A DNA stretch of 64,000 nt from Fulvivirga maritima (GTDB lineage: Bacteria; Bacteroidota; Bacteroidia; Cytophagales; Cyclobacteriaceae): NCBI RefSeq assembly GCF_021389955.1, contig NZ_CP089980.1:2165001-2229000 (forward strand). The letters are read 5' to 3'. The number at the start of each line of letters is the position of its first letter. Positions within the stretch are counted from its first letter, which is position 1. Positions 51,910 to 63,042 of the stretch are shown here, one piece after another. A model generated the notes under the pieces. That model had not been told where the DNA came from and did no database searches. It saw only the letters and a list, made by a program, of their open reading frames with translations. The position numbers were made by a program, and so were the translations under genes.

Positions 51910-52599
51910 TTATGCCTTAATGGCCTGAACCATCTCCTTTTTTCCAGGAGGGCCCGGCAGAGAGTTTACCGTCAGTCCAAGGCTCTTTAAGTCTCTTTTT
52001 AACTGACCTTTGGCACAATAAGTAACAAACACAGCCTCAGGTTTCATAGCCTGAACTATCTTATTCAAAATATCATAACTCCAGAGTTCTTCTTGCTTGC
52101 TGGGAGCGAAGGCATCAAAATAAATAATGTCAAAAGCAGCTTCCGGCAAGGTACATTCCTCTAGCTTTTTATCTATTTTTTTTAACAAAAAATGGTTGTG
52201 AATTGGTTCATCATTATTCCATGCAGTTTGGTGGATTTTAGAAAACCACTCTTTGGCTTCTGGAGCTTTTAGATAATCACAATAGTTTAGATGATCAGTC
52301 AGCTCTGCCTTTAGGGGGTAAGCTTCTATGGAAGTGAAGTGTATTTTTTGCTGATGAGCATGGGCATAGTCTGCGGTAAGTAGCGCATTGAGGCCCGTGC
52401 CCAGGCCCACTTCAAATATGGAATAAGCAGGCTGAGGGGCCTGCTGTATTTTATACTCAAGGCCCGACTTTATAAAAACATGAACAGACTCTTGCACCGC
52501 GCCATGAAAAGAGTGATAGGTTTCATTTAAACGAGATACATACAGGCTATGAGAGCCATCGTCTGTAGTGATTAATTTTATGTCAGGTTGTTTGCTCAT
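51910..52599 (-). CDS. mnmD: tRNA 5-methylaminomethyl-2-thiouridine methyltransferase MnmD-like
   Basis: A 229-residue SAM-dependent methyltransferase equal to the methylating half of MnmC, without the FAD oxidase half. The SAM site lies in FEVGLGTGLNALLT (near 62-75), and the DUF752-type motif is FDIIYFDAFAPSKQEELWS (near 159-177). It would complete the mnm5s2U wobble modification in tRNA. It overlaps ispF by 4 bases. Confidence 0.9.
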   Translation of the reverse strand: MSKQPDIKLITTDDGSHSLYVSRLNETYHSFHGAVQESVHVFIKSGLEYKIQQAPQPAYSIFEVGLGTGLNALLTADYAHAHQQKIHFTSIEAYPLKAELTDHLNYCDYLKAPEAKEWFSKIHQTAWNNDEPIHNHFLLKKIDKKLEECTLPEAAFDIIYFDAFAPSKQEELWSYDILNKIVQAMKPEAVFVTYCAKGQLKRDLKSLGLTVNSLPGPPGKKEMVQAIKA

Positions 52600-53072
52600 T
52601 TTATAATTAATACGGTAGCATAAGCAGAAACTCCATCTTCTCTGCCTACAAAACCTAGTTTTTCTGTAGTAGTGGCTTTTATAGATAAATCTTCTTCAGG
52701 GATTTCCATCACCTTAGCCAGGCAGGCTTTCATTTCTGGTATGTGTGGATTAACCTTGGGTTGCTGAAGGCAAATGGTGCTATCAATATTGCTGATTTTC
52801 CATCCTTTCTCACGGATAAGCTTCATTACCTCTTTCAGCAAGATTTTACTATCTATACCCTTATATTGAGGATCTTTATCAGAGAAATGAAAGCCAATAT
52901 CACGCATATTAGCGGCTCCCAATAGTGCATCGCAAATAACATGAATAAGCACGTCGGCATCAGAGTGGCCTACAGCCCCTTTGGTGTGCGCCAGCTTAAT
53001 GCCTCCCAGCCAAAAATCATAGCCCTCTTGTAGCTGATGTACATCATACCCAAAACCTGTTCTTATTTTCAT
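52596..53072 (-). CDS. ispF: 2-C-methyl-D-erythritol 2,4-cyclodiphosphate synthase
   Basis: A 158-residue enzyme of the MEP isoprenoid pathway. The signature FGYDVHQL and the zinc motif GHSDADVLIHVICDALLGA are present, as are the DIGFHFSDKDPQYKG and STICLQQPKV segments. Four-base overlaps link it to the M16 protease before it and mnmD after it. Confidence 0.97.
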   Translation of the reverse strand: MKIRTGFGYDVHQLQEGYDFWLGGIKLAHTKGAVGHSDADVLIHVICDALLGAANMRDIGFHFSDKDPQYKGIDSKILLKEVMKLIREKGWKISNIDSTICLQQPKVNPHIPEMKACLAKVMEIPEEDLSIKATTTEKLGFVGREDGVSAYATVLIIK

Positions 53073-54316
53073 GCGTTCTTTTCTTTTGATTTATAATATA
53101 AAACCGAGCAGTTGGTTTCTCTCAGGATCTGGGGAGCTAAGGCTTCCATGCGTTCTTTAGTTACTTCCTGAATAAGTTCTGCTTCCTGGTTTACAAAGTT
53201 AGTGTCGCCAGATAGCGAGGCAAAAGCCAGCGCTCGGGCTCTATTTAATAGCTCTACTTCTGAAAATACTAAAGTAGATTCTGCCTGATTTTTTACTTTT
53301 TCTAATTCTGAATCTTCTATACCGTTTGCCAGTAAGTCATTGATAATGGTCCATACATGCTCTTCAGCTTTTTCTATAGGCACATTTTCTGATACCCTAC
53401 CCGTAATAACCAGAAGCCCAGGATCCATAGACCCGGTAACATAAGCATTGATAGAGCTAAAGATTGATTGTTCTTTAACCAGCTTCTGATATAAGCGAGA
53501 AGATTTTTCACGACCCAAAATATCACTGATAAGATCTACTGAAGTATAGTCAGGGTCAAACTTGCCAGGCATATGAAAGGCCATGGTAAGCATGTCTGAA
53601 GGAACATCTTCAACTATTTCCATAAACCTTCTTTCGTTTTGAACGGGTTCTTTCGGAAGATTGCGAACATACGCTTCACCTCTGGGGATGGGGCCAAACC
53701 ATTTTTCTGCCAGTGCTTTCACCTCTTCAGTATCAACATGGCCGGCTACTACCATAATGGCCTGGTTGGGCACATAGTGTTTGTAGAAGAAAGCCTTAAC
53801 GTCATCCATGGTAGCGTCTTCAATATGGCGAATTTCTTTACCAATAGTAGGCCATTGGTAAGGATGCGCTTTATAAGCTAGCGGTCTGAATTTCAGCCAC
53901 AAGTCACCATAAGGTTGATTAAGATACCTTTGTTTAAACTCTTCTATAACTACTTTCTGTTGCGTTTCCAGCACTTTTGGGTCAAAAGAAAGTCCTAGCA
54001 TCCTATCAGACTCTAGCCAAAAACCGGTTTCCAGGTTTTGAGGAGGCACGGTAAGGTAGTAGTTAGTGACATCAGGGTTAGTGAAGGCATTATTTTCGCC
54101 TCCGGCTTCCTGTAAAGGTTCATCATAATTAAGGATGTTTTTGGAGCCTCCAAACATGAGGTGCTCAAAAAGGTGAGCGAACCCGGTTTTTTCTGGAGAT
54201 TCATCCCTCGAACCTACATCATATAAAATGTTAATTACCGCAGACTGTACACTTTTGTCTTCATGTACTATAACCCGCAACCCATTATCTAAAGTGAAGC
54301 TGTTGTATTTGATCAT
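53069..54316 (-). CDS. M16 family zinc peptidase (catalytic)
   Basis: A 415-residue M16 peptidase with an intact zinc motif HLFEH (in TGFAHLFEHLMFGGSKN) and the downstream Glu in the VIEEFKQRY helix. The second domain has the R/Y-type segment ILGREKSSRLYQKLV. I use the ATG at 54316; the frame reaches back to 54346, but a -7-like box (54324-54331) lies between them and homologues begin near MIKYNSFTLDNGLRVIV. No signal peptide is apparent in the short form. It could pair with the zinc-free M16 protein at 1018. Confidence 0.9.
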   Translation of the reverse strand: MIKYNSFTLDNGLRVIVHEDKSVQSAVINILYDVGSRDESPEKTGFAHLFEHLMFGGSKNILNYDEPLQEAGGENNAFTNPDVTNYYLTVPPQNLETGFWLESDRMLGLSFDPKVLETQQKVVIEEFKQRYLNQPYGDLWLKFRPLAYKAHPYQWPTIGKEIRHIEDATMDDVKAFFYKHYVPNQAIMVVAGHVDTEEVKALAEKWFGPIPRGEAYVRNLPKEPVQNERRFMEIVEDVPSDMLTMAFHMPGKFDPDYTSVDLISDILGREKSSRLYQKLVKEQSIFSSINAYVTGSMDPGLLVITGRVSENVPIEKAEEHVWTIINDLLANGIEDSELEKVKNQAESTLVFSEVELLNRARALAFASLSGDTNFVNQEAELIQEVTKERMEALAPQILRETNCSVLYYKSKEKNA

Positions 54317-54323
54317 TAGCAGA

Positions 54324-54331
54324 CAAAAATA
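54324..54331 (-). promoter_or_regulatory. Possible -7 box of the M16-ispF-mnmD operon
   Basis: The minus strand reads TATTTTTG (TAnnTTTG), 7 bases before the ATG at 54316. If used, the message is nearly leaderless and the upstream start at 54346 is excluded. Confidence 0.35.
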
Positions 54332-54346
54332 AAAATATAACATCAC

Positions 54347-54376
54347 TTTGCAGATATAGCCAATACTTTAATTTTG
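54347..54376 (+). promoter_or_regulatory. Promoter of the fused E1 gene
   Basis: A -33 TTTG (54347-54350) and a -7 TAATTTTG (54369-54376) are 18 bases apart, close to the Bacteroidota spacing of 19-21. Transcription would start near 54382, which favours the ATG at 54399 over the TTG at 54378. Confidence 0.55.
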
Positions 54377-54398
54377 TTTGAAATCAATAGACGGATAT

Positions 54399-56375
54399 AT
54401 GAATTTTGATCGCAAGGAGTACTCGGATCAGTTGTTGAAGACATTGTACGAAGGGCTTTTGAGACCACGTATGATAGAAGAAAAAATGTTGATTTTACTC
54501 CGGCAGGGCAAAGTGAGTAAGTGGTTTTCAGGTATAGGACAGGAAGCTATTTCTGTTGGCGCTACTTCTGCACTTCATTCAGATGAATATATTCTGCCTA
54601 TGCATAGAAATCTCGGGGTGTTCACCTCACGTAATATTCCATATAGAAAATTATTTGCTCAGTTTCAGGGTAAGCTTTCTGGCTTTACTAAAGGGAGGGA
54701 TCGGTCTTTTCATTTTGGTAGTAATGAGCACCATATTATAGGCATGATCTCACACCTGGGGCCTCAGCTGTCCGTAGCTGATGGTATTGCTTTAGCTAAT
54801 AAATTGAATGGAGAGCAAAAAGCTACTGTGGTCTTTACTGGTGATGGCGGTGCAAGTCAGGGGGAATTTCATGAAGCATTAAATGTGGCTGCCGTTTGGG
54901 ACTTGCCAGTAATATTTGTGATTGAAAATAATGGTTATGGTCTTTCTACGCCAGTGAGCGAACAGTTTAGGTGTGCTAGTTTTGTAGATAAAGGCGTTGG
55001 TTACGGTATAGATGCCATTAAGATTGATGGTAATAATGTGCTAGAGGTCTACAACACTATTTCGCAGCTGGCTGATAATATGAGGGCTAACCCCAAGCCA
55101 GTAATTGTAGAGGCCATTACTTTTAGGATGAGAGGCCATGAAGAAGCCTCGGGTACTAAATATGTGCCTAAAGAACTGCTTGATAAATGGGCACTAAAAG
55201 ATCCTGTAGAAAATTATGAGGCCTATCTTCTTAAAGAAAAGGTAATAACAAAGGCCTATGTTGATAAACTTCGAAAGGCCATTCTAAAAGAAATTGATGA
55301 GGGCTTAAAGACTGCTTTTGCTGAAGGAGTGCCAGAAGCATCAGTAGAAAATGAGCTTAATGATGTGTATGCACCTCATGATTATAAAGAGACTAAACCT
55401 ACTGGTGAAAAAACATCTGAAAGGAGATTAGTCGATGCAATCTCTGATGGGCTGAAGCAAAGCTTGGAGAGATTTCCTGAGCTGGTGGTAATGGGGCAGG
55501 ATATAGCTGAATATGGTGGTGTTTTTAAAGTGACTGAAGGTTTTGTGGAGCTTTTTGGAAAGGAAAGGATAAGAAATACACCTCTTTGTGAATCTGCTAT
55601 TATTGGTATTGGGTTAGGTATGTCCATTAAGAACCAAAAGAGCGTTATAGAAATGCAATTTGCTGATTTTGTGACTTGTGGTTTTAATCAGATAGTGAAT
55701 AACCTGGCTAAATCTCATTACCGATGGCAGCAAAATGCTGATGTGGTAATAAGGATGCCTGCTGGTGCGGGAGTTGGAGCGGGTCCTTTTCATAGCCAGT
55801 CAAACGAAGCATGGTTTTTTCATACGCCGGGGCTAAAGGTGGTTTACCCGTCATCTCCGGCAGAGGCTAAAGGTTTATTGGCTGCCGCAATTGAAGATCC
55901 TAATCCTGTCATTTATTTTGAGCATAAATATTTATATCGCTCATTAAGTGAGCAGGTGGCTGATGATTATTATACTACTGAAATAGGTAAAGCCAGATTA
56001 GTAGAAGAGGGCGAGCAGCTATCTATAATTACTTATGGTATGGGCGTGCATTGGGCTAAAGAAGTGGTGAAGAGCTTAGGAGCATCTGCTGATATTTTAG
56101 ATTTGCGCACACTACTGCCCTGGGATAAAGAAGCCGTAGAAAAAACAGTGCAGAAAACGAATAGAGTATTACTTTTGCATGAAGATTGTCTTACCGGAGG
56201 TATCGCTGGGGAGTTGGCTGCATGGATTGCAGAACATTGCTTTAAATATTTAGATGCGCCAGTATTCAGAGTAGCCAGCCTGGATAGTGCAGTGCCGTTT
56301 GCCTCTTCACTGGAAGAAAACTTTCTCCCTAAAGGAAGGCTCAAACAAAAAATTGAGGAATTGCTGGAATTTTAA
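54399..56375 (+). CDS. Branched-chain 2-oxoacid dehydrogenase E1, alpha and beta subunits fused
   Basis: A 658-residue fusion. The alpha half (about 1-330) has the thiamine diphosphate motif GDGGASQGEFHEALNVAAVW ending in ENNG (near 146-180) and MRGHEEASGTKYVP; the beta half (about 340-655) has GQDIAEYGGVFKVTEG, TPLCESAIIGIGLGMS and AGAGVGAGPFHSQSNEAWF. Such fusions are normal in Bacteroidota for the branched-chain keto-acid complex (2-oxoisovalerate type); the exact keto acid is inferred. It needs a lipoylated E2, encoded elsewhere; lipA is 4 kb downstream. Confidence 0.9.
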   Translation: MNFDRKEYSDQLLKTLYEGLLRPRMIEEKMLILLRQGKVSKWFSGIGQEAISVGATSALHSDEYILPMHRNLGVFTSRNIPYRKLFAQFQGKLSGFTKGRDRSFHFGSNEHHIIGMISHLGPQLSVADGIALANKLNGEQKATVVFTGDGGASQGEFHEALNVAAVWDLPVIFVIENNGYGLSTPVSEQFRCASFVDKGVGYGIDAIKIDGNNVLEVYNTISQLADNMRANPKPVIVEAITFRMRGHEEASGTKYVPKELLDKWALKDPVENYEAYLLKEKVITKAYVDKLRKAILKEIDEGLKTAFAEGVPEASVENELNDVYAPHDYKETKPTGEKTSERRLVDAISDGLKQSLERFPELVVMGQDIAEYGGVFKVTEGFVELFGKERIRNTPLCESAIIGIGLGMSIKNQKSVIEMQFADFVTCGFNQIVNNLAKSHYRWQQNADVVIRMPAGAGVGAGPFHSQSNEAWFFHTPGLKVVYPSSPAEAKGLLAAAIEDPNPVIYFEHKYLYRSLSEQVADDYYTTEIGKARLVEEGEQLSIITYGMGVHWAKEVVKSLGASADILDLRTLLPWDKEAVEKTVQKTNRVLLLHEDCLTGGIAGELAAWIAEHCFKYLDAPVFRVASLDSAVPFASSLEENFLPKGRLKQKIEELLEF

Positions 56376-56432
56376 TTAAATTAGTGCGTTTAAAGGCTAA
56401 TTGAATTCTAATTTTTTAAGTGATCAGCCGGA

Positions 56433-58937
56433 TTGAAGTTTACCTATCAAATACCATTTTTTGCAAAATTGCCAATAATAAGGACATTATTCTATGGAAT
56501 GCTGCTCCTGTTTTTTATTGGTATGGCTTCTCCCGTGGCTCATGCTCAGGGCAAGAGATCTGAATATGAAAGGGTAAAGGCCAAGAAAAATAAAAAGAAT
56601 AGAAGGCTTAAAAGAAGAGGTGATAGAGGAAAGTCTAACCGCCGCAAATTAAGAGCTACTAAGTTTAAAATTAGATCACGCCAGGGAGAAAGAGCCTTTC
56701 ATGGAGATATCACTGGCAGGAAATTCAGGTCAAAAAGATCTACCAGGCCTCAATGGGGGGCGCGTATTGCTTCACCTAATCCTTACGCAGGTCGGAAAAG
56801 AATGAGCGAGGGCAGCAGAGCCAAAGCTAACAGGCAAACACCAAGATATAGCTCAAGAAAAAGAGAGCGAGCAGGTAAAGCCGCTGGCCGAGCTTTTAAT
56901 AGAAACTCAGTAAGAACTACTTTTACAGGAAAACGATATAGGCAAAATAATATGTCTGCCACGCGTGATCCGGAAAGACCGCGTAAAGTAAAAAGAATAT
57001 CACCTCGTTCGGCATCAGGCTCATATAATGTAAGAAGAAAGCGGAGTCCTTATAATGCTTTCAGGAAGAGAAGCCCTTGGGAAAAGGCATTTCAGGGTGA
57101 TATTACCGGAAGAAAATTCAGAACGAAAAGAACCAACGAAAGGCAGTCAATTAAGAGGCCTGGAAGAATAAAATATACTTCATCAGGAGGCAGAAGGGGA
57201 GACAGAGCTTATAATGGTAATGTGCAAAGTGGGTATAATTCCGTAACCAAAAGAAGAGAACGTGCCTGGAAAAATGATATCAGTGGGCATAAGCTCAGAA
57301 TAAGAAATTCTAAAAGACCAGATTTTGGAGGATCTCAATTTAATGCCTATCCTACTGGCAAGCGCAAAGGAGACAAAGCCTATAGAGGCAAACTGAAAGG
57401 TGGAGGTTTTAAATCTGAAAGCTCAAGAAAAGAGCGAAGCGGTAAGCCATTGCCTAAGTTAGGCTCTCCTTCTGTAGGTAGTGGGTTTAAAGGAAGGGTA
57501 AGAGCAGGCAAGCCACTCAAAGGAGGAGGCAGCATTAGCGGGAAAAGAAGAAATAATAATGGAAGAGCAATACAAAGTAGAGCGCCAAGATCGCAAGATA
57601 CTCGTATTGCAGGCTTTCAGGGTAATGTAAAAGGTGGCCGCATTCTAAAAGGGGGAGGTAGCATCAGTGGTCGTTCTAGAAATAACCGTGGTAGACCAAT
57701 TGATGGCCGAGGCCCCAGAAGGCAAGATAATCAAACTGCTAAATTTCAGGGTAATGCCAGAGGTGGCCGTATTCTTAAAGGAGGAGGCAGCATTAGTGAT
57801 AGATCTAGAAATAATAAAGGCAGACCTTTAGAAGGTAGAGGACCAAGAAGACAGGATAATCAGACAGCTAAGTTCCAGGGAAATGTAAAAGGTGGCCGTG
57901 TATTGAAAGGTGGCGGTAGTATTAGCGATCGTTCCAGAAATAACAAAGGCAGACCACTGGAAGGACGTGGAACTAGAAGGCAAGATAATCAAATAGCTAA
58001 ATTTCAAGGCAATGTAAAAGGAGGTCGTGTGTTTAAAGGCGGTGGCAGTATTAGTGATAGATCCCGGAATAATAAAGGCAGGCCTGTTGATAGCAGAGCA
58101 CCAAGAAAGCAAGACAATCGAATAGCCAAATTCCAGGGAAATGTAAAGGCCGGAAAAGTTTTGAAAGGTGGCGGTAGTATAAGTGGTCAATTATGGAATA
58201 ATAAAGGTCAGCCTATTGATAGCCGCATACCTAGAGATCAAGATAAGAAGTCAGCAGCCTTCCAGGGAAATATTAAGGTGCGAAAAAATCTGGTGAAGAA
58301 AAATGCGGCTAAGTCGGCCAATTTTACTGGTCACATAAAAATGTACCCTTACATGAATAAGACAGGACCAGACGATGCTCATGTGTATAGAGGAGGCATG
58401 AAGAGGAGCTTTAAATATAAAAAGGCACCAAATGCAGCTGACGAGTCTATTAAAGTAAGGAAGCCAAATAAGGAATTTTTCAAAACAGGAAAGTATAGTG
58501 GTAACGTTAAAGACAGAAGAGTATTTAAACAAAACCCTTCTGCAGCCAGAGAGTCATTAAAAAACAGGCCTGCAGGTAAAGGAACTGCCAAGGGTATGGA
58601 TTTTCAAGGCCGATTTAAAGCTAATGTTAATTACAAAACCCGACCACACGCAGCTGATAATGCTTCTAAGGGCAAAGGACCTTCAAGGGCAGCTATCAAA
58701 GCAAGTAGTTATCAGGGTAATATTAAAATGCGTAAAAAATGGGTGGGCAATAGGCACCCTGACTTCAAGTATATAAGTATGAAGTCTAACGGTAAGAGGG
58801 AAAAAGAAAAAGTGTTTAGCTTTAAAATTTTATGGTCTAAATGGTTTAAGAAAGAGGAAAATCAGCCTCTTAATGTGAAGCAGAAGGAGAGAAAACCTAG
58901 GTACGATAAAAAAGAAGAAGGACTTTGGAACGATTAG
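56433..58937 (+). CDS. Extremely basic secreted repeat protein, unknown function
   Basis: An 834-residue protein I do not recognise. The N-terminus has a hydrophobic export signal (about 17-38, ending AHAQ); the rest is dominated by Lys, Arg, Gly, Ser and Asn with few acidic residues. Residues 351-608 are six tandem 43-residue repeats (core FQGNVKGGRVLKGGGSIS, then RNNKGRP and RRQDN). Outside them the same aromatic-x-Gly-x-hydrophobic-basic core recurs in degenerate form (AFHGDITGRKF, AFQGDITGRKF, AYRGKLKGG, YSGNVKDRR, FQGRFKANV, YQGNIKMRK). There are no cysteines and no recognisable enzyme motif. The frame opens with TTG at 56433; the next ATG (56499) would still keep a signal-like segment. 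It lies 57 bases after the E1 gene and 3 before ytxJ. No T9SS domain is evident at its C-terminus. Confidence 0.85.
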   Translation: MKFTYQIPFFAKLPIIRTLFYGMLLLFFIGMASPVAHAQGKRSEYERVKAKKNKKNRRLKRRGDRGKSNRRKLRATKFKIRSRQGERAFHGDITGRKFRSKRSTRPQWGARIASPNPYAGRKRMSEGSRAKANRQTPRYSSRKRERAGKAAGRAFNRNSVRTTFTGKRYRQNNMSATRDPERPRKVKRISPRSASGSYNVRRKRSPYNAFRKRSPWEKAFQGDITGRKFRTKRTNERQSIKRPGRIKYTSSGGRRGDRAYNGNVQSGYNSVTKRRERAWKNDISGHKLRIRNSKRPDFGGSQFNAYPTGKRKGDKAYRGKLKGGGFKSESSRKERSGKPLPKLGSPSVGSGFKGRVRAGKPLKGGGSISGKRRNNNGRAIQSRAPRSQDTRIAGFQGNVKGGRILKGGGSISGRSRNNRGRPIDGRGPRRQDNQTAKFQGNARGGRILKGGGSISDRSRNNKGRPLEGRGPRRQDNQTAKFQGNVKGGRVLKGGGSISDRSRNNKGRPLEGRGTRRQDNQIAKFQGNVKGGRVFKGGGSISDRSRNNKGRPVDSRAPRKQDNRIAKFQGNVKAGKVLKGGGSISGQLWNNKGQPIDSRIPRDQDKKSAAFQGNIKVRKNLVKKNAAKSANFTGHIKMYPYMNKTGPDDAHVYRGGMKRSFKYKKAPNAADESIKVRKPNKEFFKTGKYSGNVKDRRVFKQNPSAARESLKNRPAGKGTAKGMDFQGRFKANVNYKTRPHAADNASKGKGPSRAAIKASSYQGNIKMRKKWVGNRHPDFKYISMKSNGKREKEKVFSFKILWSKWFKKEENQPLNVKQKERKPRYDKKEEGLWND
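57483..58256 (+). repeat. Six tandem 129-base coding repeats
   Basis: Six in-frame copies of a 129-base unit (43 codons), with the copies of the same codon exactly 129 bases apart (for example 57741 and 57870). Central copies are the most alike; the first and last are more diverged (GFKGRVRAGK at the start, ISGQLWNNKGQP in the sixth), the usual pattern of internal duplication. Confidence 0.92.
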
Positions 58938-58940
58938 AAT

Positions 58941-59282
58941 ATGGAATGGAATAAAATAGATAACCCTGATCAAATAAACACATTAAAGGAAGAGTCTAAA
59001 GGACAAATGGTTATGCTATTTAAGCATAGTACCACTTGCCCTATTAGTAGCATGGCGCTTAACAGACTGGAGCGATCATGGCAAGATGATGATGCCCAGG
59101 TGATAAAGCCATATTTTCTAGACCTTTTAAAATACCGCAGTATTTCTAATGAAATAGCTGATGCTTTTAGTGTACAGCATGAATCACCTCAAGTGATCCT
59201 TATTAAGGAAGGGGAAGCTGTTTATAACAACTCCCACATGGGTATAAATTACGCTGAGATAATAGGCCAGGCTAAAAGTTAA
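58941..59282 (+). CDS. ytxJ: Bacillithiol system redox-active protein YtxJ
   Basis: A 113-residue thioredoxin-fold protein with a single active-site Cys (C33) in the YtxJ motif FKHSTTCPISSMAL, and the cis-Pro region HESPQVILI. YtxJ proteins are monothiol bacilliredoxins thought to remove bacillithiol from proteins. It begins 3 bases after the basic repeat gene, so the two are probably co-transcribed. The convergent osmC-family gene overlaps its end by 11 bases. Confidence 0.92.
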   Translation: MEWNKIDNPDQINTLKEESKGQMVMLFKHSTTCPISSMALNRLERSWQDDDAQVIKPYFLDLLKYRSISNEIADAFSVQHESPQVILIKEGEAVYNNSHMGINYAEIIGQAKS

Positions 59283-59679
59283 AGCTGATAGTTTGCTTTA
59301 TGTCCGGTGACAAGCTAAGCGCTACGGGGCAAGTTTTGGCAGCTCTTTTAAGTACTTCTATTTGTTTAGGAGTAGCCTCCAGATGATCATGAGAAAAGGA
59401 AATAATAATTTCACTGATTTTTCTGGGATTAGCCGACATAACTTTTGTAACTTCTGCTTTGAGCCCTTTGATATCAACATTTTCCTGTGCGGCCTTAATG
59501 CCCATTATGGTAATCATACAGTTGGTTAAAGCAGACGCGATTAGGTCAGTAGGCGAGAAAGCCTCTCCTTTACCGTTGTTATCAACCGGGGCATCAGTAA
59601 TAATGGTATTGTTAGATTTTAGGTGAGTAGCACTACTGCGTAGATCACCTAAATACTCAGAAGTCATAGAGTGTGTCAT
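59272..59679 (-). CDS. OsmC family hydroperoxide-reductase-like protein
   Basis: A 135-residue OsmC-fold protein with the two conserved cysteines: C54 (SALTNCMITIMG) and C117 (KTCPVALSL). Such proteins reduce organic hydroperoxides with the help of small thiols or lipoyl partners. It lies next to and convergent with ytxJ, hinting at thiol and peroxide defence, though they are on opposite strands. Length is typical. Confidence 0.9.
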   Translation of the reverse strand: MTHSMTSEYLGDLRSSATHLKSNNTIITDAPVDNNGKGEAFSPTDLIASALTNCMITIMGIKAAQENVDIKGLKAEVTKVMSANPRKISEIIISFSHDHLEATPKQIEVLKRAAKTCPVALSLSPDIKQTISFNF

Positions 59680-59774
59680 AATAGGGGATTAGATAAAAAC
59701 TAAAATTGAGCTATTTTCGTTAATAACTCTAAAATCCTTAAATTTATAAATTATTACTTTTTCTGTTGCTTAGT

Positions 59775-60491
59775 ATGGGCAAAAAGCTATTATTAATACT
59801 TATTTTATTCACTCCTTTTTTTGGGTTTGCTCAGTCATTGGAGGCTGATAACTATGAATCTGAATTTATATGGGGAGTAAATAAAAATACTGCTGGTGGA
59901 CTTATTGGTGGTGTAGTGGCGCGTAAGTCTAAAAGGCTTACTGACAGAATGTACCAGAGTTTTGGCCTGGAGCTCATGAACGTAAAGCACGAACGTGAAC
60001 TGAGAGTGACATCTTATCAAGGAGGAGGTCAGTTTATATACGGAAAAAGTAATTATCTGTATGCTATCAGATTACAATATGGCCGCGAATTAGTCTTATT
60101 CAGAAAAGCACCCGACCAAGGTGTGGAGATTAAAGCCATAGGCGCTATTGGTCCTTCAATAGGATTACTCACCCCATATTATGTTAGCTACTTTGCTAAT
60201 AATACAGATTATGACCTTAGCTATGCTCCTTACTCAGATCAGGATTTTAGCACGATCTACGGATCAGGAAGAATTTTTCAAGGCCTTTTTGAATCACAGC
60301 TTAGAATTGGTGCTAATCTGAAAGCGGCTCTTAGCTTTGAGCTTGGCTCGCAGAAAAGTCATGTTACCGGTTTTGAAGTAGGCTTTTTGTTAGATGCCTA
60401 CGCCGGGGAGATAGAGCTTATGCCAGCTTATGATAACAGCTCTGTTTTCCCTACTGCTTTCATTACACTTTTCTATGGCAGGAGAAGATAA
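59775..60491 (+). CDS. Small secreted outer-membrane-type protein, unknown
   Basis: A 238-residue protein with a signal peptide (about 1-20, ending FAQS). The remainder consists of alternating strands (GGGQFIYGKSNYLYAIRLQYGREL; LRIGANLKAALSFELG) and ends in FYGRRR, suggesting an eight- to ten-strand barrel. I do not recognise the family. I use the ATG at 59775, not the TTG nine bases upstream. It is followed 65 bases later by lipA. Confidence 0.72.
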   Translation: MGKKLLLILILFTPFFGFAQSLEADNYESEFIWGVNKNTAGGLIGGVVARKSKRLTDRMYQSFGLELMNVKHERELRVTSYQGGGQFIYGKSNYLYAIRLQYGRELVLFRKAPDQGVEIKAIGAIGPSIGLLTPYYVSYFANNTDYDLSYAPYSDQDFSTIYGSGRIFQGLFESQLRIGANLKAALSFELGSQKSHVTGFEVGFLLDAYAGEIELMPAYDNSSVFPTAFITLFYGRRR

Positions 60492-60523
60492 TTGAAATAG
60501 TGAGGTCTTAAAAATTTATTTTC

Positions 60524-60531
60524 TAGTTTTG
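60524..60531 (+). promoter_or_regulatory. Possible -7 box of lipA
   Basis: TAGTTTTG fits TAnnTTTG and lies 26 bases before lipA. No -33 TTTG at the usual distance. Confidence 0.35.
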
Positions 60532-60556
60532 TGTTGAGAATAATCATACCCTACTT

Positions 60557-61444
60557 ATGATAGAACTACCAGTAATTTCTGAAGGAGAACAAAAGAAAAA
60601 ACGTAAACCAGACTGGCTTAGAGTAAAATTACCTATTGGTAAGGAGTATGCTAAAGTGAGAAAACTGGTTGATAACCATAAATTACATACTATTTGTGAA
60701 AGTGGAAGCTGCCCTAATATGGGAGAATGCTGGGGTGCCGGTACGGCTACTTTCATGATTTTAGGTAATGTGTGTACCAGAAGTTGTACTTTCTGTGCCG
60801 TAGCTACGGGCAGGCCTCCTGAGTATGACGAAGAAGAGCCTAAACGTGTAGCTGAAGCCATTAAGTTGATGGGAGTAAAGCATGCCGTGCTTACTTCTGT
60901 AAACAGAGATGAGCTGAAGGATAGAGGTGCAGAGATATGGTACCAAACGGTGAAATTGACTAAAGAGCTTAGCCCTGAGACTACTATAGAAACCTTAATC
61001 CCTGATGTAAAAGGAAATTGGGATGCTTTATATAGAATGATTGAGCCAGGGCAGGAAGTGGTTTCGCATAATATAGAAACTGTAGAAAGACTTTATAGAA
61101 GAGTTAGACCTCAGGCCAAATACCATAGAAGTCTGGAGCAAATTAAAAAGACTAAAGAGGCAGGCATGAGAACTAAAACAGGAATTATGCTTGGCGTGGG
61201 CGAAACTCAGGATGAAGTGCACAAGGCTATGGATGATCTGGCTGCTAATGGATTAGATATCCTTACGCTGGGGCAGTATTTACAGCCAACAAAAATGCAC
61301 CTTGAAGTGGCTGAGTTTATTCACCCTGATCAGTTTGATGCATATAGAGAAGAAGGTTTGAAAAGAGGACTTAAATATGTTGAGTCTGGGCCATTGGTGA
61401 GATCATCATATCATGCAGAGAGACATGTGAATGTGCCAATCTAA
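60557..61444 (+). CDS. lipA: Lipoyl synthase
   Basis: A 295-residue radical-SAM enzyme that inserts two sulfur atoms into octanoyl groups on lipoyl domains. Both iron-sulfur motifs are intact: the auxiliary cluster in [13 protein letters not shown] and the radical-SAM CxxxCxxC in [17 protein letters not shown]. Other marks are [15 protein letters not shown] and [12 protein letters not shown] at the end. It supports the E1-linked dehydrogenase complex and the glycine cleavage system (gcvP, 63265). Confidence 0.98.
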
Positions 61445-61463
61445 TTGATGAAGAAATAAAAAT

Positions 61464-61500
61464 AAAAAAGCCGGACAATGATTCATTGTCCGGCTTTTTT
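61464..61500. terminator. Bidirectional terminator between lipA and the M28 peptidase
   Basis: Perfect arms GCCGGACAATG and CATTGTCCGGC around a 3-base loop, flanked by A-runs and T-runs on both sides, so it can act on both convergent transcripts. Confidence 0.95.
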
Positions 61501-61518
61501 ATTAGGTAGTTCATAACC

Positions 61519-63042
61519 TTAATCCTGATTAAGCTTTTGCTCAGAAGGTTTATCTACTTTTATTCTTTCTTCTCTGTTAGCCAGTTCCCAGGCAGTATAG
61601 AAAACTAGTTTGGCTCTTTTTTCTAATAGCTCGAAATTAATCTTATCTACAGTATCAGTGGGCTGGTGGTAATCTTCGTGCGTTCCATTGAAATAGAAAA
61701 TTACAGGGATGTTATTCTTGGCAAAGTTCCAGTGGTCAGATCTATAATAGATTCTTTCCGGGTGATTCTCATCGTTATACGTATAGTCAAGCTCAAATTT
61801 GGTGTAAGTCTCATTCGCTTTTTCACTGATGGTATGCAGTTCTGAAGAAAGTTTGTCAGCGCCTACCAGGTATACGTAGTTAATATTGTCTTCATGCTTT
61901 TCATCTATACGGCCGATCATATCAATGTTAAGGTCCACCACCGTATTTTCTAAAGGAAAAACAGGATTGTCTGTATAATAGCTAGAGCCCAATAAACCTT
62001 TTTCTTCACCTGTCACAGTCATAAATAGCATGCTTCTGCGTGGGCCGTTTCCATCTTCCTTAGCTTTTGCAAAGGCTTCTGATATTTCTAATACGGCAGA
62101 GGTTCCTGAGCCGTCATCATCAGCACCATTATAAACTTGTCCATTTTTAATTCCTTCATGGTCATAGTGAGCAGTTACTACTATAAGCTCCTCTTTTTTG
62201 TCAGAACCTTCTAAATAGCCTAATACATTTTCAGATCCTACAGTCTTTACTTTTTGTTCGGTTTGATATTTAATAGAGCTGCCTTTGATCTTCTTTAATG
62301 ACTTTTTGCCACTTTCATCAGCAGCAGCTTTTAACTTTTCTACTGATGTGTTGAAGATCTCAGCTGCTGTAGATGGAGATACCAGAAATACGCCGTCAGC
62401 ACTGCCAGAAGCAATAGATGGTTTTTCTAATGATAATCTTCCTCCTGATAAATATCTTTTAAATCTGTTAGTAGTATTTTTAAAATCCTCATCAGTAGCA
62501 TCTGTTACAGCAAAAAGGATGGATACATTCGCTTTTTCAGCATTTTGCATCACTTTAGGGTCTCTTAGGTTATTTACAAATATCAGAGCCGCTTTGCCTT
62601 CTGCTTTTACCTGGTTAAAGTCTTCTTCAGAGCCACTTCCGGCAAATACAATATCAGAGGTTAAAACGCTATTTGTGCTAGACGTACCATAGTAGATTAT
62701 ATCTTCAAAGTTCTTTTTCTTTTTACCGTCCACTTCTATGAAAATATCTCCTGGTACTATAGAGTATAGCTCTACCGGCTGTAGATAGCTTTTTCTGTCT
62801 CCATTTTTTACGGGAGCAGTTAACCCTAAAGATTCAAAATGTGCACTAATGAAAGCCGCAGCCATTTTTTGTCCTCTTGTGCCGGTTTCTCTTCCTTCTA
62901 GCGCATCCGAAGCTAAAATAGAAAGATCTTCGTGTAAATCTTCCTTGGTTATGGTAGATGCATATTTCTCAGCGGTTTTATCCTGAGCATATAAGCTGCC
63001 GGTAAGGACAAACGCTATCAAAAATAATTTAAGCTTTCGCAT
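61519..63042 (-). CDS. Secreted M28 family metallopeptidase
   Basis: A 507-residue exported peptidase. Signal peptide about 1-19 (ending LYAQ); an inserted PA-like domain spans about 110-260; the M28 zinc ligands are in VVTAHYDHEG, NGADDDGSG (bridging Asp) and TGEEKGLLGS (Glu pair), with Asp in NIDMIG and a last His in RSDHWNF or THEDYHQPTD. The family consists of aminopeptidases or related exopeptidases. No T9SS domain is seen, so it is probably periplasmic. Confidence 0.93.
   Translation of the reverse strand: MRKLKLFLIAFVLTGSLYAQDKTAEKYASTITKEDLHEDLSILASDALEGRETGTRGQKMAAAFISAHFESLGLTAPVKNGDRKSYLQPVELYSIVPGDIFIEVDGKKKKNFEDIIYYGTSSTNSVLTSDIVFAGSGSEEDFNQVKAEGKAALIFVNNLRDPKVMQNAEKANVSILFAVTDATDEDFKNTTNRFKRYLSGGRLSLEKPSIASGSADGVFLVSPSTAAEIFNTSVEKLKAAADESGKKSLKKIKGSSIKYQTEQKVKTVGSENVLGYLEGSDKKEELIVVTAHYDHEGIKNGQVYNGADDDGSGTSAVLEISEAFAKAKEDGNGPRRSMLFMTVTGEEKGLLGSSYYTDNPVFPLENTVVDLNIDMIGRIDEKHEDNINYVYLVGADKLSSELHTISEKANETYTKFELDYTYNDENHPERIYYRSDHWNFAKNNIPVIFYFNGTHEDYHQPTDTVDKINFELLEKRAKLVFYTAWELANREERIKVDKPSEQKLNQD

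Follow-up and report, generated by a model that had tools for sequence, protein, structure and literature searches.

A Fulvivirga maritima gene for an extremely basic exported protein, here called the polycation, is a real gene, and its product is no isolated oddity: it is a member of a family in Cytophagales, with a C-terminal tail under strong constraint. The gene lies in the 64,000-nucleotide stretch of DNA that we analyzed (the window), where an earlier note had described its product as an exported 834-residue chain without Cys, a description that stands in each of these respects (Table 1).

Table 1. Features of the polycation locus in the window
Feature	Positions	Strand	Basis
Fused E1 alpha/beta 2-oxo acid dehydrogenase, upstream neighbor	54378..56375	+	Pfam/NCBIfam, synteny
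Polycation gene, 834 aa, TTG start	56433..58937	+	ORF and dN/dS against L032
Predicted Sec signal peptide, residues 1-38, cut after VAHA and before Q39, SPase I type, Q-rule Gln	56433..56546	+	Sequence, alignment
Six tandem copies of a 43-residue unit (FQGNVKGGR.LKGGGSIS..RNNKGRP...)	57480..58253	+	Self-comparison, Tandem Repeats Finder
Conserved C-terminal 130 residues, HP...(R/K)(Y/F)DxxExx(I/L)W, the stretch kept throughout the order	58545..58934	+	Alignment A1, profile searches, dN/dS 0.019
ytxJ (BrxC, monothiol bacilliredoxin family), downstream neighbor	58941..59282	+	Pfam/NCBIfam
Small outer-membrane beta-barrel, OmpA/OmpX/OmpW-like fold by model	59766..60491	+	Structure model, profile search

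A Constrained Gene for an Exported, Extremely Basic Protein

The polycation gene starts 57 bp downstream of the E1 stop and ends 3 bp upstream of ytxJ, the neighbor that had been reported for it. Compared with its nearest relative, at locus L032 (89% identity over 834 codons), it has a dN/dS of 0.044; the same pair gives 0.045 for E1, 0.025 for ytxJ and 0.062 for the barrel gene, and all these ratios are rough, the synonymous sites being strongly diverged (dS 1.3). Codon constraint between species, whose absence would have been a refutation, is thus present, and because it resembles that of E1 we conclude that the gene is real; an untranslated or chance ORF is ruled out. The last 230 codons, with a dN/dS of 0.019, are under stronger constraint than the rest of the chain. 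As a separate observation, the intergenic 57 bp that precede the TTG (56376-56432) contain a stretch, approximately TTAAATTAGTGCGTTTAAAGGCT, that is nearly identical in several relatives and is a possible promoter or leader. Among seven relatives compared, the 57-bp spacing and a similar upstream stretch recur in L031, L032, L034 and L036; L037, L040 and L045 differ.

The signal peptide was read from the sequence and an alignment rather than with a signal-peptide program. In Bacteroidetes a Q-rule places Gln directly after the SPase I cleavage site (PMC5837995), and Gln39 directly follows the predicted cleavage site of the window polycation. This predicted first mature residue is invariant across 25 aligned full-length sequences. 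Starting translation instead at the next ATG, codon 23, would lose the basic n-region of the signal peptide. The window polycation has no lipobox Cys, as the whole protein is free of Cys.

The computed pI of 11.77 and net charge of +174 bear out the claim of extreme basicity, with a composition of K 13.2%, R 14.0%, G 12.4%, D 3.6% and E 2.8%. Acidic patches, said to be almost absent, are indeed so: all 50-residue windows of the mature chain (step 10) are net positive, from +7 to +20. Work in E. coli indicates that positive charge early in a mature chain should hinder Sec export; the first 18 mature residues of the window polycation carry a net +6, and the nearly neutral QNTKGD opens the mature chain in 16 of the 25 aligned polycations.

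Codon adaptation is unremarkable, the gene ranking 37 of 48 window ORFs against a reference of all plus-strand ORFs in a 19-kb ribosomal region, a few non-ribosomal genes among them. High expression is therefore unsupported by codon use, and this ordinary codon adaptation lends no support to a very abundant matrix or structural protein.

A Polycation Family in Cytophagales

A protein search with the window polycation matched 23 of 58 genomes, the window genome included. In genomes without a match, the interval beside E1, ytxJ or the barrel gene turned up 12 further very basic exported proteins, every one of which has a related tail at its end. With these two sets and G039, G043, G046 and G054, the polycation is present in at least 39 of the 58 relatives. 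The survey of Cytophagales that had been proposed was run with profile A1, built from the last 130 residues of 28 sequences: it matches 68 of 194 genomes and 43 of 94 genera, and the E1/ytxJ locus proves to be conserved. Of these 68 matches, 61 are at E<1e-5 and the other seven are weak, partly covering the repeat part alone; seven of the 68 genomes had themselves given rows to A1. Each polycation lies at one place per genome by this search. In a class-wide sample, A1 found four of 395 genomes, the window genome included, all four in the window's taxonomic family. The rest of the 58 relatives may hold diverged polycations that A1 misses.

Shared properties were counted over 63 members; the two ORF pieces of L035 and the duplicates L097, L098, L099 and L140 were left out, and L051, cut at a contig start, was included. 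The L035 pieces are the polycation gene of G008, which appears as two overlapping ORFs, through an assembly gap or a frameshift. Every member is basic (pI 9.7-12.0), every member falls on the disordered side of the charge-hydropathy line, and the mature part lacks Cys in 61 of 63. Mature lengths range from 224 to 1036 residues, slightly shifted in that the script took the first [AGS]Q as the mature start, which is wrong for several members; the Q at all 63 starts is likewise no test of the Q-rule, being chosen by this design, with several starts clearly not cleavage sites.

Scattered (F/Y)xG(D/N)(I/V) motifs run through these chains. The pattern [FYW]xG[DN][ILVMF] occurs 399 times in the 63 members, against 6.0 expected by shuffling; it was picked with the sequences already in view, copies in tandem lack independence, and four members have none. 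In the window polycation the FxGN-type motif is found outside the tandem array as well as within it. The six 43-residue copies that had been described there are confirmed in exact register at residues 350-607, with pairwise identities of 51-88% (mean 68%), and Tandem Repeats Finder reports a 129-bp period, 4.1 copies and 76% matches. These repeats are rich in RR/KR, and an M16-type peptidase gene lies upstream on the opposite strand (53069-54346), both of which would suit a polyprotein precursor cut at many dibasic sites into cationic signal or antimicrobial peptides. We regard such a precursor as very unlikely, given that order-wide conservation falls on the tail rather than the repeat, that repeat sequence varies between genera, and that no bacteriocin export gene is present among the identified window neighbors.

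The tail is the conserved part. Its E and W are invariant in all 28 aligned sequences, and the pattern (Y/F)(D/M)xxExx(I/L/M)W is found in 35 of 36 ORFs of a first set, the one exception being the front part of a split gene, and in 30 of 33 of the named set, where the three misses keep DxxExxIW by eye. The window protein thus combines the features that mark the family: a basic exported chain, a motif array, the DxxExx(I/L)W tail and the E1/ytxJ neighborhood.

A structure prediction, another of the checks proposed, yielded no fold. AlphaFold, run on the window polycation with a 25-sequence alignment, which can miss a real fold, gave a pLDDT of 40.7, with 707 of 834 residues under 50. The model is helical within the signal peptide, at 44-59 and at 70-77, and its low-confidence elements include a helix at 787-806 and another, short, at 826-832. 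A strongly amphipathic tail helix acting as a membrane anchor was considered and rejected, the moment being moderate (rank 46 of 776 windows); tail-helix hydrophobicity is lost in L063 and L091. We read the polycation as a probably intrinsically disordered chain that carries short linear motifs and would dock by its conserved tail.

No Match to Described Families

The claim that no described family fits the protein also survives. The window polycation matched no Pfam or NCBIfam family at E<=1, nothing in PADLOC and no PDB sequence at E<=0.1, and profile A1 matched no PDB sequence at E<=1. A scan of curated families was widened to ten further proteins, eight of them members of the polycation family. 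For seven of the ten there was no match at E<=0.01; one weak match each, below cut-off, came from L079 and the short protein L128; and L061 had four matches, two of them above the Pfam cut-off (DUF7912, 27.0 bits; Phage_Coat_A, 22.4 bits), with no stretch passing alone. Since the L061 matches lie in repeats, we read them as repeat artefacts and not as membership of either family. Membership of a known family is thus rejected, with no match for the window protein and none convincing for the eight relatives. An artefact of composition is rejected as well: none of 2000 shuffles of the window protein matches A1 at E<=10, compared with 3.1e-42 for the real protein, whose tail is itself a row of A1. 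Titles and abstract openings in the literature searched, mostly outside subscription journals, contained no description of a Cytophagales polycation family. With no curated family, solved relative by sequence or paper found, we rate the Cytophagales E1-ytxJ polycations as a new family.

Histone-like proteins and silaffins are cationic DNA- or mineral-binding repeat proteins. They resemble the polycation in being disordered and repetitive, with high Lys/Arg/Gly, whereas for the polycation no sequence match was found, and it is a bacterial exported protein with a different motif. A polycation with many aromatic-Gly motifs could serve as a periplasmic nucleic-acid binder in DNA uptake or protection; however, there is no competence gene among the identified window neighbors and no match to a DNA-binding family in Pfam or NCBIfam, and we give this role very little credence.

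Nor was a type IX secretion (T9SS) C-terminal sorting domain, type A or B, found in the window polycation at E<=1 in Pfam/NCBIfam, which presumably contain models for these domains. This absence makes the periplasm look more likely than the extracellular matrix as the destination. The T9SS translocon gene sprA is present in 57 of 58 relatives, so co-distribution is uninformative about a T9SS link. The genes around the polycation that were run through Pfam/NCBIfam (51910-63042) include no secretion gene, in agreement with the earlier note; 52596-53072 is putatively ispF. These results bear on a surface or matrix polycation that crosses the outer membrane, binds extracellular DNA, LPS or acidic polysaccharide, and acts in adhesion or biofilm. 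Its composition and the drift of its repeats would fit a matrix protein, and the near-universal sprA means that a route exists in principle; nevertheless, the missing sorting domain, the lack of a secretion gene among identified window neighbors and the ordinary codon adaptation all count against it, and we consider it unlikely. The earlier suggestion of a matrix or scaffold protein is therefore only partly upheld. Its general class of explanation, in which an envelope polycation serves as a scaffold or attaches to DNA, LPS or acidic polysaccharide, is still sensible; an extracellular matrix is less likely than the periplasm, and codon use does not support abundance.

A Conserved Locus

The order E1 - [small lipoprotein] - polycation - ytxJ - OmpA/OmpX-like barrel is kept. 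Loci around E1 were taken as the best 80 of a larger number, from named genomes (Fulvivirga, Ohtaekwangia, Chryseolinea, Marivirga, Pontibacter, Hymenobacter, Roseivirga and others), and the 33 among these 80 that have a polycation by profile are the base for the neighbor counts. E1 ends within 600 bp upstream of the polycation in 28 of the 33, overlapping it in L109 and lying further away in L118, L130, L131 and L149. ytxJ follows within 600 bp in 26 of 33, and the barrel gene lies within 3 kb in 30 of 33, two of the three exceptions being contig ends. L186 has the order E1 - lipoprotein - polycation - ytxJ; in L188 (3619-5153, G043) polycation and ytxJ are adjacent, and E1, lipoprotein and barrel gene are on other stretches. 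The ytxJ product, in which no signal peptide is visible, is probably cytoplasmic.

The barrel protein matched no Pfam family above cut-off. Its model (pLDDT 89) resembles the OmpA, OmpX, Ail and OmpW barrels, with a best E of 3.3e-6 and, among the top 15 structures, TM of about 0.4-0.6 and 6-13% identity; as modeled, it is a generic fold that gives no function. In related genomes the barrel gene often adjoins lipA. The presence of this gene nearby in most named loci might suggest that the polycation helps in assembly, as a disordered cationic chaperone or holdase that serves outer-membrane barrels or lipoproteins together with the neighboring barrel protein. However, the barrel gene gives one match per genome in 56 of 58 relatives, with or without a polycation found, and so is independent of it. 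We therefore reject the barrel protein as an obligatory partner, and consider the assembly role improbable.

A Small Lipoprotein and a Short Basic Protein at the Same Locus

In distant members a small lipoprotein, with CP after its lipobox and a basic tail, is encoded between E1 and the polycation. The profile built for it, A4, matches nine of 58 relatives at E<=1.5e-6, three of which had contributed sequences to it; another 12 genomes match more weakly, with E up to 0.01, and are excluded from this count. All nine genomes also have a polycation, adjacent to the lipoprotein in eight (G043 is the exception), and the match in G026 reads across a stop. A profile search found no such lipoprotein in the window genome.

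Loci of the Pontibacter, Rufibacter, Hymenobacter and Adhaeribacter type are organized differently. All 24 pair the lipoprotein with a short exported basic protein (profile A6) and have no polycation; 11 of the 24 gave rows to A4 and 16 to A6. An A1 search of four of these 24 genomes found no polycation. The short protein, of about 107-140 aa with a YK(E/D)(S/T)HL-type motif (loci within L107-L176), lies between E1 and ytxJ; two such proteins had no Pfam match over cut-off. The best 80 loci divide into 34 with a polycation (one of them with the lipoprotein), 24 with lipoprotein and short protein, one with the lipoprotein alone and 21 with none of the three; in none of the 80 do the long polycation and the short basic protein occur together. 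Among the 21, BLAST found polycation fragments in L105 and L137, six genomes have a polycation elsewhere or on another contig, and 13 genomes have none by A1 (eight labeled Roseivirga, two Aquiflexum, and one each Cognataquiflexum, Litoribacter and Thermoflexibacter). Because these 13 have none by profile, either the function is dispensable or a diverged form escapes A1.

The pair of short basic protein and CP-lipoprotein thus resembles the polycation in being exported, basic and at the same E1-ytxJ place, whereas hhalign detected no homology between the short protein and the polycation tail (probability 0.1). Homology of the two is therefore unsupported in this comparison, which was with the tail profile alone; they may yet be of common descent with the signal lost. 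We put forward the hypothesis that the short protein functionally replaces the long one at this locus. The consistent pairing in all 24 loci suggests that exported positive charge is the property kept between E1 and ytxJ.

A Tentative Model for Polycation Function

Tentatively, in a proposal that may well be wrong, we favor a disordered polycation in the periplasm that makes contact with an anionic polymer of the envelope at many points and uses its tail for docking. Sec would export the protein, SPase I would cut before Gln39 and the chain would stay in the periplasm. There it would lie as a flexible chain along the polymer, for which peptidoglycan or the outer membrane's inner face is the most likely candidate, and cross-link it through many weak contacts made by its charge and its aromatic-Gly motifs. 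One specific protein would receive the C-terminal helix and the DxxExx(I/L)W tail as a docking site, and the small basic lipoprotein, where present, would tie the module to a membrane. The polycation would in this way be a non-covalent tether or scaffold of the envelope. In this proposal we base export on the signal peptide, residence in the periplasm on finding neither lipobox nor T9SS domain, binding to the polymer on charge and docking on the conservation of the tail; and length would be free to drift because what acts is a multivalent chain and not a folded domain. The net +6 over the first 18 mature residues and the ordinary codon adaptation weigh against a simple abundant scaffold.

Known envelope proteins offer partial parallels. 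Braun lipoprotein (Lpp), Pal and OmpA-type tethers join outer membrane and peptidoglycan (see PMC8263019), a job like the one proposed here; in contrast to them, the polycation has no lipobox or match to an OmpA-like domain and is a long disordered basic chain. The periplasmic linkers of TonB and TolA are likewise charged, poorly folded chains (see PMC12204202), but they have an inner-membrane anchor and connect folded domains, whereas the polycation resembles a soluble SPase I substrate and carries motif arrays.

A bolder version, which we think rather unlikely, is that the Cytophagales envelope is held in part by a dedicated periplasmic polycation module, disordered, multivalent and Cys-free, sometimes with the small basic lipoprotein, that condenses on an anionic polymer; selection would then act on exported charge and not on fold, so that the locus could exchange its long chain for short basic proteins unrelated to it.

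Overall, a single odd ORF has led to a protein family defined by a testable signature and a named locus, in a group of bacteria with a poorly understood envelope. The family provides natural variants, over its wide range of mature lengths, for the effects of length and charge on the function of disordered proteins. If the periplasmic scaffold proposal is true, disordered polycations can be among the structural components of a gram-negative envelope; and if the envelope is indeed held in part by a condensing polycation module, its scaffold would work by a physical principle new to the bacterial periplasm.
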